Part shown: one piece after another, positions 31,854-36,302 of the stretch
Numbering within the stretch: the stretch's first letter is position 1
Layout: the number at the start of each line of letters is the position of its first letter
Source of the DNA: Rhizobium sp. 32-5/1
GTDB taxonomy: Bacteria; Pseudomonadota; Alphaproteobacteria; Rhizobiales; Rhizobiaceae
Length of the DNA stretch: 64,000 nt
Reading direction: 5' to 3'
NCBI RefSeq assembly: GCF_029537235.1
Contig: NZ_CP120638.1
Location: forward strand, 1,426,001 to 1,490,000
Translations under genes and position numbers: made by a program
Notes under the pieces: model-generated
The model's input: only the letters and a program-made list of their open reading frames with translations
The model's database searches: none
Told to the model about the DNA's origin: nothing

Positions 31854-32900
31854 CTACAGGGTCGCCAGCGCCCTGTTTGATATATTGTTGCCATTGGCCT
31901 TGCGGATGGCCACCTTGGTCTCCAATGCCGCGATGACATCGACTGCAAAATCAACTCCGCAAAGGGCTGCGATATCCGGAAGGCCACCGGGCGTGAAGAC
32001 GTTGATCTCCAGGATTTTGTCTCCAACGATATCGAGACCGACGAGGAACATCCCGTCCTCAATCAGCTTGGGTCGGACCATCTCGGCGACGGCCAGAATG
32101 TCCGGCGTGATTTCCACAGCCGCGGCGGTGCCGGCGGCGTGCATATTGGAACGAACCTCGCCGGAGGCCGGAACCCGCCGGAATGCCGCATAGGTGCCGT
32201 CCCGGGACAGAGGCCTGCCATTCATCAGGAAAAGCCGGATATCGCCGGCCTTTGCCTCGCTCAGATAGGCTTGCGCGATCAGGTAACCCTCGCCGCTGAC
32301 GGCTTCGAAAATCTGGTTGAGATTTGCGTCATCCTGGGACGCGATCTTGAAGACATTCTTGCCGCCCGACCCCTGCAGCGGTTTCAGGATCACGCCCTGC
32401 TGGTGTTCGCCGATGAAGGCGCGGATTTCCTCGATGCTTTTGGAAATCAGCGTGGTCGGCCGCACTGCTGCGGGAAAACCCTGGAAATAGAGCTTGTTTT
32501 GGGCCATCGCCAAACCGCCAGGATCGTTGAGAACGATCACCCCGCGTTCGGCGGCCAGACGTCCGAAGATTGCGCCGACATGGGCAGCCCAAGGACGGTC
32601 GTCGGCGTCAAGCGATGGGTCGCTGCGCAGAAACAGGACATCGATATCGCGCGCATCGATCGTCTCGATCGCTGCATCCTTGCTCTGAAGTACCGCGTGA
32701 AAAGTCTCAGCCTTCTTGTATTTCGATCCGGGGAGCGTCAGCGCACGGACCATCAGGCTGTCATCCGGGCGCAGAACAAAGTCACCAGGCGTCAGGTAAC
32801 AAATCTTATGGCCACGATCGAGTGCCGCCAATGCCAGAGCGGTTGTCGTGAAATAGGGTTCTTCCAACTCAATCGAATTGACAAAAAAGGCGATGCGCAT
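31854..32900 (-). CDS. Glutathione synthetase-like ATP-grasp ligase
   Basis: This 348-aa ATP-grasp enzyme resembles GshB. The N-terminal domain has RIAFFVNSIELEEPYFTTTALALAA and DVLFLRSDPSLDADDRPW (GshB: RKDPPFD). The ATP site includes NDPGGLAMAQNKLYFQGFP, GVILKPLQGSGGKNVFK, GDIRLFLMNGRPL, and metal ligands in GLDIVGDKILEINVFTPGG. GshB proper has an INVTSPT ending there, so the acceptor site differs. Such enzymes form an amide bond between a carboxylate and an amine through an acyl phosphate. It is the last of three co-directional genes, eight bases after the QEGLA peptidase. It is probably not the cell's main glutathione synthetase; its true substrates are unknown. Confidence 0.85.
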   Translation of the reverse strand: MRIAFFVNSIELEEPYFTTTALALAALDRGHKICYLTPGDFVLRPDDSLMVRALTLPGSKYKKAETFHAVLQSKDAAIETIDARDIDVLFLRSDPSLDADDRPWAAHVGAIFGRLAAERGVIVLNDPGGLAMAQNKLYFQGFPAAVRPTTLISKSIEEIRAFIGEHQQGVILKPLQGSGGKNVFKIASQDDANLNQIFEAVSGEGYLIAQAYLSEAKAGDIRLFLMNGRPLSRDGTYAAFRRVPASGEVRSNMHAAGTAAAVEITPDILAVAEMVRPKLIEDGMFLVGLDIVGDKILEINVFTPGGLPDIAALCGVDFAVDVIAALETKVAIRKANGNNISNRALATL

Positions 32901-32908
32901 GGTGACTC

Positions 32909-34794
32909 CTATAATTCGATCATATCGACAGGGGAAATGCCATTGCGGCTCCTCTCGAGACGGGCCTGGGCATCCGGATGCGAGAGAAAGTCCGGACGCA
33001 CGACTGGCGCCTTGAGAAGGCCTCGGGCACTCAGTTCCTGCATGACCGAAAAATGCGACGCGGAAATCTTGCCCATCCAGAACGGGTCGAGCGCGCGGTC
33101 GCTTTTCAGATGCTCCAGCAACTGCAACAGCCCGCGAAGGTAGATCGCATCCTTTGCAAGACCGCCACCACGATAGAGGCGCAATACTAGGTTGAAGGCA
33201 TCGCTTTGCGCAAGACCGTGCTCATCCGTCAGCCGCGAAAACGTCCGCTCGAAAGGCACCCCTTCCAGCATCATGGCACAGCCGACAACCCGCGCGGCAA
33301 TCAGGCGCAGGCGCTCGACCGTCATGCCGCCGCTCAGATACTCCGCAAACACCGCAAGCCCCTCCTGCATGCCTTCATAACCCGCAAGCCCGGAGCGGAA
33401 CAGCCGCAACCCCTGCGCCGATCCATTGAAATAGGTGAGAAGATGGACGCCGACTTCATGACTGAGCAGCGGCCCGACCCGCGCACGATCCATCAGCGTG
33501 TTGCGGGATATAAGCAGGCGGTTGCCGGAAACCATCAGGCCGGAGGGAAGATCACTGCGGAGCTCGACCGTCGCCTCGAAGCCGGAATATTGATTCCGGT
33601 ATCCCGCGATCATCGCCCGCGCCAGCATGTCGAGAACAAAACAATCCGCCGTTTCCGGCTCTTGCAGACTTGCTTTGGTAACCGATGTGTCAGCCAGAAT
33701 CTGTGTTGCCACCTGCAGGAGCGACGGCTCGACGGGACCGTAGAGCGCCCTGCCCAGCTCGATGAAGCGCGGCATTTCACGCGCGGCCAGCAGAGAGAGC
33801 TGCAGATCCAGTTCCTGCTGTTTCTCCCGATAAAGCGCATGCAGCACCGGATCCTCGAAACGATCGAAGCCGATTGTGAAGAGCTTGCGTTTTTCAAGCT
33901 CGATATCGACAGTCAACGGCCGATAGAGAAATCTGGGCGCTTTTCGAAACCCGCCAGCCTTGAATTCCTGCCAGGCAGCATCGGCGTTGATCGGCGTCAC
34001 GGCCAGCAGAAAATCAAAGCTCGACGCGATTTCATCGATACTGCGGTCGGCGCGACTGACGGCATCGACGAAGGCCTTTCGTCCGAGTTGCCGGTGTGTC
34101 GTCAGCTTCAGAGCACCCTTCGCCTTGATGAACGCGGCCAGAGCCTGCAATCCGGCATCGAAAATATTGGCAACAAGGCGCTCTTGAAGATCCGGATAGA
34201 TTTTTTCTGATTTCGCCAGCCGATAAATCGGCGCGACACGCACGCTGATGCAGGGGAACAGCGTGTCGGGAAACGCAGCATCGCTGGTCGAAGCCTGTGC
34301 TATCGCCGCCAGTTCGGCCCGGGGTGTCCGGAATTTCGCTTTGATGCCCTGCACTGCCTGCACCAGCGTACGGGCCGCGACAGACGCTGCCTCATCGTCG
34401 GTGTGAAACACCTTTACCTCGAAAGGCGGCAGATAGGGCGCATCGTCAGTCAGCAGCGTATCGGCTGCCAGTTCACCGATCTCAAGCAACATGAAGGCAC
34501 CGAACCGCCTCTCAAGCGCCGCACCCACAGCTTCAACAATCGGCAGGGCAACATCGACATCGGGAGCCAGGAGATAGACCGCGCTGGCCGAGACGATATT
34601 GCGGGCAACCGCATCGTCCCTGCCCCTTTCTATATAGACGCAAAGGAAGGGAAGCGGCCTGTCGATATGAAGGCGGCCACCCTCGCCAAACTCCTTGCGT
34701 ACGGATTTTCCAGTCTCGATAGAAGCCAGAACCTCCGGCATCCAGTCCGACGCCGTCGCCTCTCGCGACAGTTCTTTTTTCGGAGTTGGGTCAT
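32909..34794 (-). CDS. QEGLA-motif (DUF1704/MATCAP-like) metallopeptidase, frameshift at about 34778
   Basis: About 628 aa of the family annotated as 'flavohemoglobin expression-modulating QEGLA motif protein' (DUF1704). The zinc site is seen: SHEVGVHLLTYFNG (HExxxH, about residues 446-451) and EGMQEGLAVFAEYL (QEGLA, about 476-480, with the third ligand Glu). The same HExxxH arrangement occurs in eukaryotic MATCAP tubulin carboxypeptidases of this domain family. ATG 34794 overlaps the amidohydrolase stop (ATGA). From there the frame breaks at the A6 run 34775-34780; a seventh A gives MTQLRKKELSREATASDW and one continuous protein. Predicted activity is carboxypeptidase-like removal of a C-terminal residue; the substrate is unknown. 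Confidence 0.83.
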
Positions 34795-35612
34795 CGCATC
34801 GCCGCCAACGTGTCCTCGAGCACAGGAATGGTGGATGCGAGCATGGCACGCAGTGCCTGGAGCGCTTCCGGATCAGGCATGCCCGTCCATTCGTCCATGA
34901 AGAATTTCTTGAACTCGACGGCGATTGCGCAGCCGGTCTCGGGAAAGGTCTCATGAATGAACCGTGTCTGTTCACCCTTGCCCTGAAAGGCAATGTTTTC
35001 GCGGACATCCATGCGGCGACCGCGGAATTCGAAGCTGGACAACGTCTCCATGAACGCATCGACCACCCCACCCCAACGGACGCGGTCCATCGAGGACGTG
35101 CCGATATTGATTTCCGGCGCGGCGTCTCTGTCGGTCGGCGATTGATCGCGCCCGTTGCGACGATGATTGTAGCTGTGAATGTCAAGCACGACGAAACGGC
35201 CGAAATTTCGCTCTATTCCTCGCAGAAATGCCCCCAGCATCGCATAGTAATCGTCATGAACACCCAGCGAAGCCTCGACCAAATCTGCGGCAGGCGTCTG
35301 TTTCCAAACATTCAGCCCCCATGCCTGCTCCGGCAGGACATACACCGCTGCATCGCGGGCGCGATTGAGATCGACCTCGAAGCGGGACCGGTGAACGACA
35401 ACACGATTGGGAACGTCGCGAATGGTAAATTCGGTGAAGGGATCCTCTTCACGCAGCCGATCCTCAGATGAGAGCGCCATAGGGAGCCGAAGATCGTTGC
35501 GGATATGATGCCCGTTGTGGATCGCGGTGGCGACGATCGGAGAATCACCGCGCTCCATCGACCACCAGGCATCCGAAGGGGAGAAATTTTCCAGAGATTG
35601 CTTGGCCGACAC
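34791..35612 (-). CDS. N-formylglutamate amidohydrolase-family protein
   Basis: This 273-aa protein is of the FGase/HutG-2 family, zinc enzymes related to carboxypeptidases that cleave N-acyl glutamate-type amides. Seen are IVATAIHNGHHIRNDLR (zinc His), REEDPFTEFTIRDVPNRVVVHRSRFEVDLNR (Glu and substrate-binding Arg residues), VVLDIHSYNHRR (second zinc His near 165) and the closing CAIAVEFKKFFMDEWTG (catalytic Glu). It is the first gene of the three-gene operon and overlaps the peptidase start by four bases. There is no his-utilisation gene nearby, so a role in histidine degradation is unlikely. Confidence 0.85.
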   Translation of the reverse strand: MSAKQSLENFSPSDAWWSMERGDSPIVATAIHNGHHIRNDLRLPMALSSEDRLREEDPFTEFTIRDVPNRVVVHRSRFEVDLNRARDAAVYVLPEQAWGLNVWKQTPAADLVEASLGVHDDYYAMLGAFLRGIERNFGRFVVLDIHSYNHRRNGRDQSPTDRDAAPEINIGTSSMDRVRWGGVVDAFMETLSSFEFRGRRMDVRENIAFQGKGEQTRFIHETFPETGCAIAVEFKKFFMDEWTGMPDPEALQALRAMLASTIPVLEDTLAAMR

Positions 35613-36302
35613 TCCGTATCCCCCTGGTGTCTCATCCGGTTCGCTCTGTTCGGAAACGATTATCAGAGCCGAATAACAACGCGTTGTGCGGAACTTTGTT
35701 CCTCTCCAGCGGATACAGCGTATCTCGATCGTGTCGCAGGAGGGTCTGGGGATCTACACCGTGGAACTTTATTTGAAGGTTCGTCTGGCCTGCTGGGAAG
35801 GAATGAGCCGGCGTCAGGCTGCGAAGCATTTCAACATATCGCGCGACAGCGTTGCCAAGATGATGTCCTATTCGACGCCACCAGGTTATCAGCGGCAATC
35901 ACCAATCCGGCGGCCCAAGCTGGATGCGTTCGTTTCGACCATCGAGCATTGGTTGGAGGACGATCTGAAGGTGCCGCGCACGCTGTGCCATACGGCCAAG
36001 CAGGTATTCGACCGGGCGATCGAAGGGCTTCCAGGTCTCGCCGATCACCTGTTCGTAGGCGGAAAACGCCCCCTCGGCTGCCATCCTGAGCGGCTCCGGC
36101 CCCGTGCCGGCCTGCCCTTCGGTGCGGGTAAAAGGAACCGGCGGAAGGCGGCGCTTTCACCGGTCCGGGACGGCTGAGGGAGCAAATTCGGTTACGGCCA
36201 AACGGGTGGCACACCTGCGACGGACGCGGGCCTGATTTGCGAAACGAGGCTGGTCCGGCCGCACAGCGGCGCGACAGCGGCCTCTTTAAAGGCGTTGCGT
36301 TG
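35613..36302. other. Gap of about 690 bp holding an IS21-type remnant
   Basis: Between the amidohydrolase and the tandem GNAT gene, both on the minus strand, lie the transposase remnant at 35737-36020 and, right of it, about 280 bp of GC-rich DNA with no recognisable gene. Minus-strand frames across the remnant are open but show no known family. This gap separates the two operons and probably holds the promoter of the amidohydrolase operon at its left end. Confidence 0.55.
35737..36020 (+). pseudogene. Truncated IS21-family transposase (IstA N-terminus)
   Basis: The plus strand encodes GIYTVELYLKVRLACWEGMS, RRQAAKHFNISRDSVAKMM and SYSTPPGYQRQSPIRRPKLD, a clear match to the N-terminal helix-turn-helix region of IstA. 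It continues to CHTAKQVFDR and then loses all resemblance; the catalytic DDE domain and IstB are absent. Only about 90 of 500 residues remain. No terminal inverted repeats or target duplication are evident, so this is an old remnant and not a mobile unit. Confidence 0.8.

Follow-up and report, generated by a model that had tools for sequence, protein, structure and literature searches.

What does a bacterial operon do that sets a ligase resembling glutathione synthetase beside a relative of the enzymes that trim tubulin tails in animals? The question is raised by a three-gene operon of Rhizobium sp. 32-5/1, lying in the 64,000 nucleotides of contig NZ_CP120638.1 that we analysed (positions 1,426,001 to 1,490,000 of the forward strand; hereafter the window). 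The operon encodes a member of the N-formylglutamate amidohydrolase (FGase) family, a protein of the DUF1704/MATCAP family and an ATP-grasp ligase of the glutathione synthetase (GshB) branch. Our tentative answer, held with rather less than even confidence, is that the three enzymes act as a single make-and-break cycle whose targets are peptides or proteins with glutamate-type C-termini and which probably serves the cell at low osmolarity. We arrive at it because the ligase is kept in company with two hydrolases, and the relatives of these work on glutamate that is C-terminal or acylated. The gene linkage and fusions, the family memberships, the predicted folds and conserved sites, and the degeneracy of one domain are direct observations. 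The operon is laid out as follows.

31854-35612, minus strand: operon of three genes, in the order FGase, DUF1704/MATCAP, ligase
34791..35612, minus strand: gene 1, FGase-family (N-formylglutamate amidohydrolase-like) zinc enzyme, 273 amino acids, GTG start
32909..34741, minus strand: gene 2, long-form DUF1704/MATCAP-family (QEGLA) protein, 610 amino acids from the ATG at 34741
31854..32900, minus strand: gene 3, GshB-branch ATP-grasp ligase, 348 amino acids

The linkage of these three genes is not due to chance. DUF1704 genes are uncommon, occurring in 8 of 289 genomes of the window's class and 47 of 398 of its phylum, and we searched 58 loci around DUF1704 matches, together with the window, with profiles built on the three proteins of the operon. 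Counting the window, 18 loci carry a full-length form headed by an FGase-like region, L094 and L096 being cut by a contig end; the ligase lies near the peptidase in 17 of the 18, and an FGase is present in 14, as a separate gene in eight and fused in frame to the peptidase in six. One fusion locus (L047) belongs to the window's own class, and the fusions that carry a genus name are from Vibrio and Photobacterium, where the fusion also appears on plasmid records. A scan anchored on the ligase gave at least 577 confirmed relatives, and among the best 80 of these, which we analysed, 70 loci have all three genes, five have ligase and peptidase (with a contig end within 0.7 kb upstream) and five have the ligase alone. 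The window's gene order is kept in 63 of the 70 complete loci; three have a changed order, and four carry two or three ligases. By record label, the complete set is found in Pseudomonadota, Planctomycetota, Actinomycetota, Poribacteria, Calditrichaeota, Gemmatimonadota, Verrucomicrobiota (with Kiritimatiellae) and Bacteroidota, and additionally in a "Deltaproteobacteria" record, which makes at least eight phyla overall. An earlier note on this DNA had treated the three families as one unit and had regarded separation in other genomes as evidence against a cycle; both the complete ligase loci and the FGase-DUF1704 fusions bear the unit out. A three-gene context common to all DUF1704 genes was rejected, since the 41 loci with a short form, or a form lacking the FGase-like region, gave no FGase match; an ATP-grasp match was present in two of the 41, both scoring better with the RimK profile. 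Among the papers listed by literature searches none gives an account of the three-gene set, and "N-formylglutamate" was not found in the literature matches for it; an earlier mention, as in a survey of ATP-grasp gene neighbourhoods (Iyer and colleagues, 2009), is possible.

Within the window, the genes are almost in contact, with gaps of 49 bases between genes 1 and 2 and 8 bases between genes 2 and 3. They had been described as three minus-strand genes "overlapping or nearly touching", and it is the second wording that holds here, the overlap being a property of relatives: annotated operons of Pararhizobium and Sinorhizobium have the same gene order, and their first two genes share 4 bases, the DUF1704 gene starting at an ATG in the FGase stop and yielding a product of 628-632 amino acids. 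The ATG within the FGase stop of the window is in a frame different from that of the peptidase gene (34741-34794), and the internal ATG 34741 seems to be the start of the DUF1704 protein; at 610 amino acids the protein is as long as an identical database protein (P0001). A promoter scan did not find a sigma-70-like site.

Several variants of the gene set were seen. Three Actinomycetes drafts (L156, L164, L184) place the ligase and the FGase first, with the DUF1704 gene facing them on the other strand, and a Phycisphaerae draft (L155, 3021-12508) has FGase, DUF1704, three ligases, MscS and CorA in one same-strand run. At L056 (9157-12109), the one full-length locus with no ligase, an AstE/AspA-type enzyme precedes the long-form DUF1704 gene in the FGase's place; its genome (G367) carries a full operon on a different contig (L058).

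The features of gene 2, the peptidase gene, are as follows.

32918..34009, minus strand: MATCAP-type metallopeptidase domain, residues 245-608
33443..33460, minus strand: HEVGVH, presumed zinc-site motif HExxxH, with H, E and H kept in 131 of 131 relatives
33341..33367, minus strand: QEGLAVFAE, with the presumed third zinc ligand; Q, E and G kept in 131 of 131 relatives
34112..34741, minus strand: N-terminal domain, residues 1-210, a degenerate FGase fold

Gene 2 scores above the cut-offs of both family models (PF08014, 301 bits against 27; TIGR02421, 360 bits against 338.65). Its structure was predicted with a predicted local distance difference test score (pLDDT) of 92.1 and a predicted template modelling score (pTM) of 0.75, and both the predicted fold and a profile search match the DUF1704 domain to solved MATCAP (7z5g, 7z6s), at an identity of ~19 % over the aligned part. 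Single-sequence searches of the PDB with the DUF1704 and FGase proteins returned nothing useful, while profile and fold searches did match. Profile match, predicted fold and invariant site thus support the view that the domain is a true MATCAP relative, as the earlier note had supposed, and the modelling against MATCAP that it had proposed gives the window's domain the fold of the solved protein. Animal and Tetrahymena members of the MATCAP/TMCP group trim polyglutamate chains but spare the residue at the branch point (PMC10499314). Carboxypeptidase or deglutamylase activity is known for these members only, and by analogy we predict it for the bacterial protein. Gene 2 shares with the tubulin tyrosine carboxypeptidases of this group (PF08014) the fold and the metal site formed by HExxxH and the EG motif, but adds a degenerate FGase domain and an operon with ligase and FGase, and a tubulin substrate is not to be expected for a bacterial enzyme. 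In annotation, bacterial DUF1704 proteins bear the uninformative label "flavohemoglobin expression-modulating".

The N-terminal domain of gene 2 goes beyond what had been noted earlier, as does the low-salt link described below. In 49 sequences of residues 1-210, no histidine is conserved at 90 % or more, and because the zinc-site histidines of the family are missing here, we regard the domain as a degenerate relative of the FGases and not as an FGase. The active form of this family appears to be gene 1, whose presumed zinc site comprises three motifs.

35511-35525, minus strand: AIHNG, presumed zinc-site motif of the FGase
35436-35450, minus strand: EEDPF, presumed zinc-site motif of the FGase
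35157-35183, minus strand: DIHSYNHRR, presumed zinc-site motif of the FGase

We take these motifs to supply the zinc ligands. FGases (HutG) hydrolyse N-formylglutamate in the breakdown of histidine. Gene 1 exceeds the cut-off of PF05013 (76 bits against 28.9) and, alongside this score, has the family fold and the conserved site, at 18 % identity to 2q7s; profile, fold and site, all shared with N-formylglutamate amidohydrolases (PF05013; 2q7s, 2odf), place it in the family, and hydrolysis of N-formylglutamate is a prediction for it. It differs from those enzymes in being tied to a peptidase and a ligase, and in some genomes fused to the peptidase; the site residues of the FGase are also retained at L053.

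The ligase carries the following motif.

31983..32009, minus strand: EINVFTPGG motif of the ligase, which reads EINVTSPTG in the ordinary GshB of the same genome

Gene 3 exceeds the cut-off of NF009110 (472 bits against 408) and falls below the models for true GshB (TIGR01380, 202 of 299 bits; NF003573, 212 of 272) and for the RimK family (TIGR00768, 68 of 143). It is the same two-domain ATP-grasp protein as GshB, matching the GshB structure 1gsa with a profile E of 2e-62, but PGG stands in place of TSPTG, and all 16 operon ligases compared share the E, N, V, P, G and G of EINVFTPGG. The sole other GSH-S gene in the window's genome is a full GshB (402 bits). The operon ligase is either a second copy beside a true GshB, as here, or present in genomes without one: among 38 operon genomes, several of them drafts, a GshB above the TIGR01380 cut-off is found in nine and missing from 29, while the glutamate-cysteine ligase families PF04262 and PF04107 are matched in 3 and 24, respectively, and neither is matched in 11. 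Every operon ligase that was scored falls below the TIGR01380 cut-off. The cut-off of NF003573 (272) is exceeded by those of L047 (277), L055 (277) and Photobacterium DA100 (292), and the L040 ligase lies slightly below that of NF009110 (405 of 408). The NCBI models name the operon ligase glutathione synthetase. Taken together, the missed GshB cut-offs and the separate GshB in the genome support a ligase that differs from the cell's ordinary enzyme, a distinction the earlier note had anticipated. It had also read both the change to INVFTPGG and the zinc site HExxxH...QEGLA correctly.

The same note had seen in the operon the "same two chemistries" as in the tubulin cycle, where tubulin tyrosine ligase (TTL) is the ATP-grasp enzyme that opposes MATCAP. 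The likeness stands at the level of ATP-grasp ligation, with a ligase and a MATCAP-family peptidase proposed to work in opposite directions. It does not extend to TTL itself: the operon ligase belongs to the GshB branch, the TTL family is absent from the Pfam matches of gene 3 up to an E of 0.01, and the operon adds a third enzyme and a pseudoenzyme domain. Hence the idea of a reversible cycle survives in its linked unit, its MATCAP relative and a ligase other than ordinary GshB, and not in the TTL chemistry as first stated.

In the cycle that we tentatively favor, the ligase would use ATP to attach an amino acid (glutamate is the most likely one) to an acceptor at its C-terminal carboxylate, and in operons with two or three ligases residues would be added in turn. 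The DUF1704 domain, like animal MATCAP/TMCP, would remove C-terminal residues again, and the FGase would cleave the acyl-glutamate-type bond left by the peptidase, for example at the first or branch-point residue. The degenerate FGase domain is predicted to act in docking or regulation and to descend from an active, fused FGase such as some relatives still have. Linkage and fusion lead us to propose that ligase and peptidase share one substrate. Glutamate is a likely choice in view of FGase specificity, the company of RimK and Rlo, and the deglutamylation by MATCAP/TMCP (PMC10499314).

Among the closest known systems are RimK/RimB and RloA-RloB-RloC (PMC11957791, PMC12239564), which likewise pair an ATP-grasp ligase with a peptidase in glutamate-tail chemistry. 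Their peptidase is retropepsin-like and aspartic, whereas the present operon has a metallopeptidase and an FGase. Rlo acts in hypo-osmotic stress: RloA protease cuts polyglutamate, and its loss harms growth of Pseudomonas in hypo-osmotic medium (PMC12239564). RimK is strongly induced in a low-salt transcriptome of Photobacterium damselae, in which, by a table of selected genes comparing 1 % with 3 % NaCl, RimK is up 52.2-fold, a chromosome II "GshB" 38.4-fold and the QEGLA gene at the next locus tag 27.5-fold (PMC10308900). We take the latter pair to be this operon because the operon ligase of Photobacterium DA100 lies immediately before the FGase-DUF1704 fusion, and because a genome with the fusion (G510) has GshB proper on one contig (C1) and the operon ligase on another (C2). 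A separate survey finds glutamate-ligase gene families commoner in brackish than in marine relatives (PMC10219603).

Genomic neighbors in several phyla, together with this one transcriptome, make a low-osmolarity role probable. Of 43 non-Rhizobiales loci, six (L148, L150, L155, L159, L160, L169) have MscS at a distance of 2 kb or less, where 0.15 would be expected from the density in the same genomes (Poisson P 1.6e-8), as do two of 17 other full-length loci (L049, L059; 0.07 expected). CorA is found at up to 8 kb in 5 of the 43 (0.12 expected) and 3 of the 17 (0.06 expected). The expectations derive from whole-genome Pfam profile counts and the observations from profiles grown on the loci, so that the methods differ; moreover, four of the 43 loci have just the ligase, and some belong to groups of closely related organisms, for example Pontibacter. 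The 41 short-form-type loci have neither MscS nor CorA. A RimK-family gene adjoins the trio at L049, and in one genus three genes of the rlo operon (rloABC-type) lie downstream. Rlo as a fixed partner was rejected, given adjacency in one genus only and RloB in 8 of 18 genomes.

Several points weigh against this cycle or its osmotic role. Glutamate is proposed from relatives and neighbors, and the expression evidence is one transcriptome, whose pair of genes is assigned through the gene order of relatives. The ligase scores nearer GshB (202-212 bits) than RimK (68 bits). Among the best 80 ligases, five have no peptidase (L161, one of these, at a contig end); the fusion of Vibrio HDW18 has no ligase within ~7 kb, the 16 kb read there giving no ligase match; and the FGase part of the L049 fusion lacks the third presumed zinc ligand, that one only. 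None of the 37 Rhizobiales loci has MscS within 2 kb or CorA, MscS within 8 kb is found in three (0.50 expected), the window has no match to either, and RloB (PF14402) was not found in the window's genome, which sets it apart from Rlo, though it is present in 8 of the 18 genomes searched. Near and far neighbors, sampled as 139 of 176 near and 127 of 163 far open reading frames, hardly differ in MscS (5/139 against 3/127), and the MscS excess is therefore a region-wide one, relative to genome density only.

The alternative that survives best is that the operon serves the synthesis and breakdown of a small free peptide metabolite (osmolyte, signal or thiol-like compound), not necessarily rich in glutamate, and has no protein target. 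The glutathione-making branch of the ligase agrees with it, as do the two or three ligases in a row at four of the 70 complete loci, which stepwise assembly needs and which fit peptide building equally well. The operon for the osmolyte N-acetylglutaminylglutamine amide, which pairs a ligase with a peptidase, is a precedent. Left unexplained is a peptidase family whose studied members trim protein tails (PMC10499314), and no exporter or precursor gene recurs among the neighbor families in our partial lists. Because, given the tandem ligases, the free peptide and the protein tail are of about equal likelihood, we regard this alternative as possible, if doubtful, beside a cycle that is itself tentative. 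A catabolic operon, in which the hydrolases scavenge acyl-glutamyl or otherwise modified peptides, their products being stored or protected by the ligase, is very unlikely: it could draw on the part of FGases in histidine breakdown and on sugar-type ATP-binding cassette (ABC) transporter genes adjoining the window's operon and downstream of the S. meliloti operon, but in the window these genes run opposite to the operon, the listed near families show no recurring uptake system beyond ABC ATPases (4/139 near against 4/127 far), and the ligase would be superfluous for scavenging. Least probable of all is a role of the ligase as another glutathione synthetase (or as the synthetase of a close thiol tripeptide), with the hydrolases recycling glutathione-type peptides, for although the NCBI name and the three ligases above the NF003573 cut-off favor it, the uniformly low TIGR01380 scores and the PGG motif oppose it, and the separate GshB of the window's genome and the many operon genomes missing GshB or glutamate-cysteine ligase led us to set an ordinary glutathione operon aside.

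Returning to the make-and-break cycle, its most specific form, a widespread three-enzyme switch at osmotic down-shift that puts glutamate on a protein C-terminus and takes it off with a MATCAP-family peptidase and an active and a pseudo-FGase, strikes us as improbable; if true, it would be a bacterial counterpart of the tubulin-tail cycle, and the tubulin enzymes of animals would have branched off from this bacterial peptidase family. If the cycle in general is real, the bacterial relatives of a tubulin-trimming enzyme would gain a function and partners, the GshB annotation would be corrected across several phyla, the strong low-salt response of "GshB" and the QEGLA gene in Photobacterium would be explained, and a metallopeptidase-based system would join RimK/RimB and Rlo in bacterial glutamate-tail chemistry. 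The pseudo-FGase domain is in addition a clear case of an enzyme domain become accessory beside its active twin.

Some further neighbors were noted. An open reading frame of 163 amino acids lies just upstream of the operon (window 35686-36177, plus strand); its helix-turn-helix matches (PF13518, PF05225) are weak, and it may be what is left of a transposase. LysR accounts for 7 of 139 near open reading frames and is absent among the 25 families listed for the far ones. At L092 (3043-5617), a true RimK lies 299 bases from a short-form DUF1704 gene and faces away from it, and short-form DUF1704 may be a partner of RimK in that genus. On the Vibrio HDW18 plasmid (L190, 6974-8965), the FGase-DUF1704 fusion follows maoP, and in Photobacterium DA100 a DUF413 (maoP-type) gene (L191, 5465-5869) lies ahead of the operon, as it does at L052 and in Vibrio HDW18.

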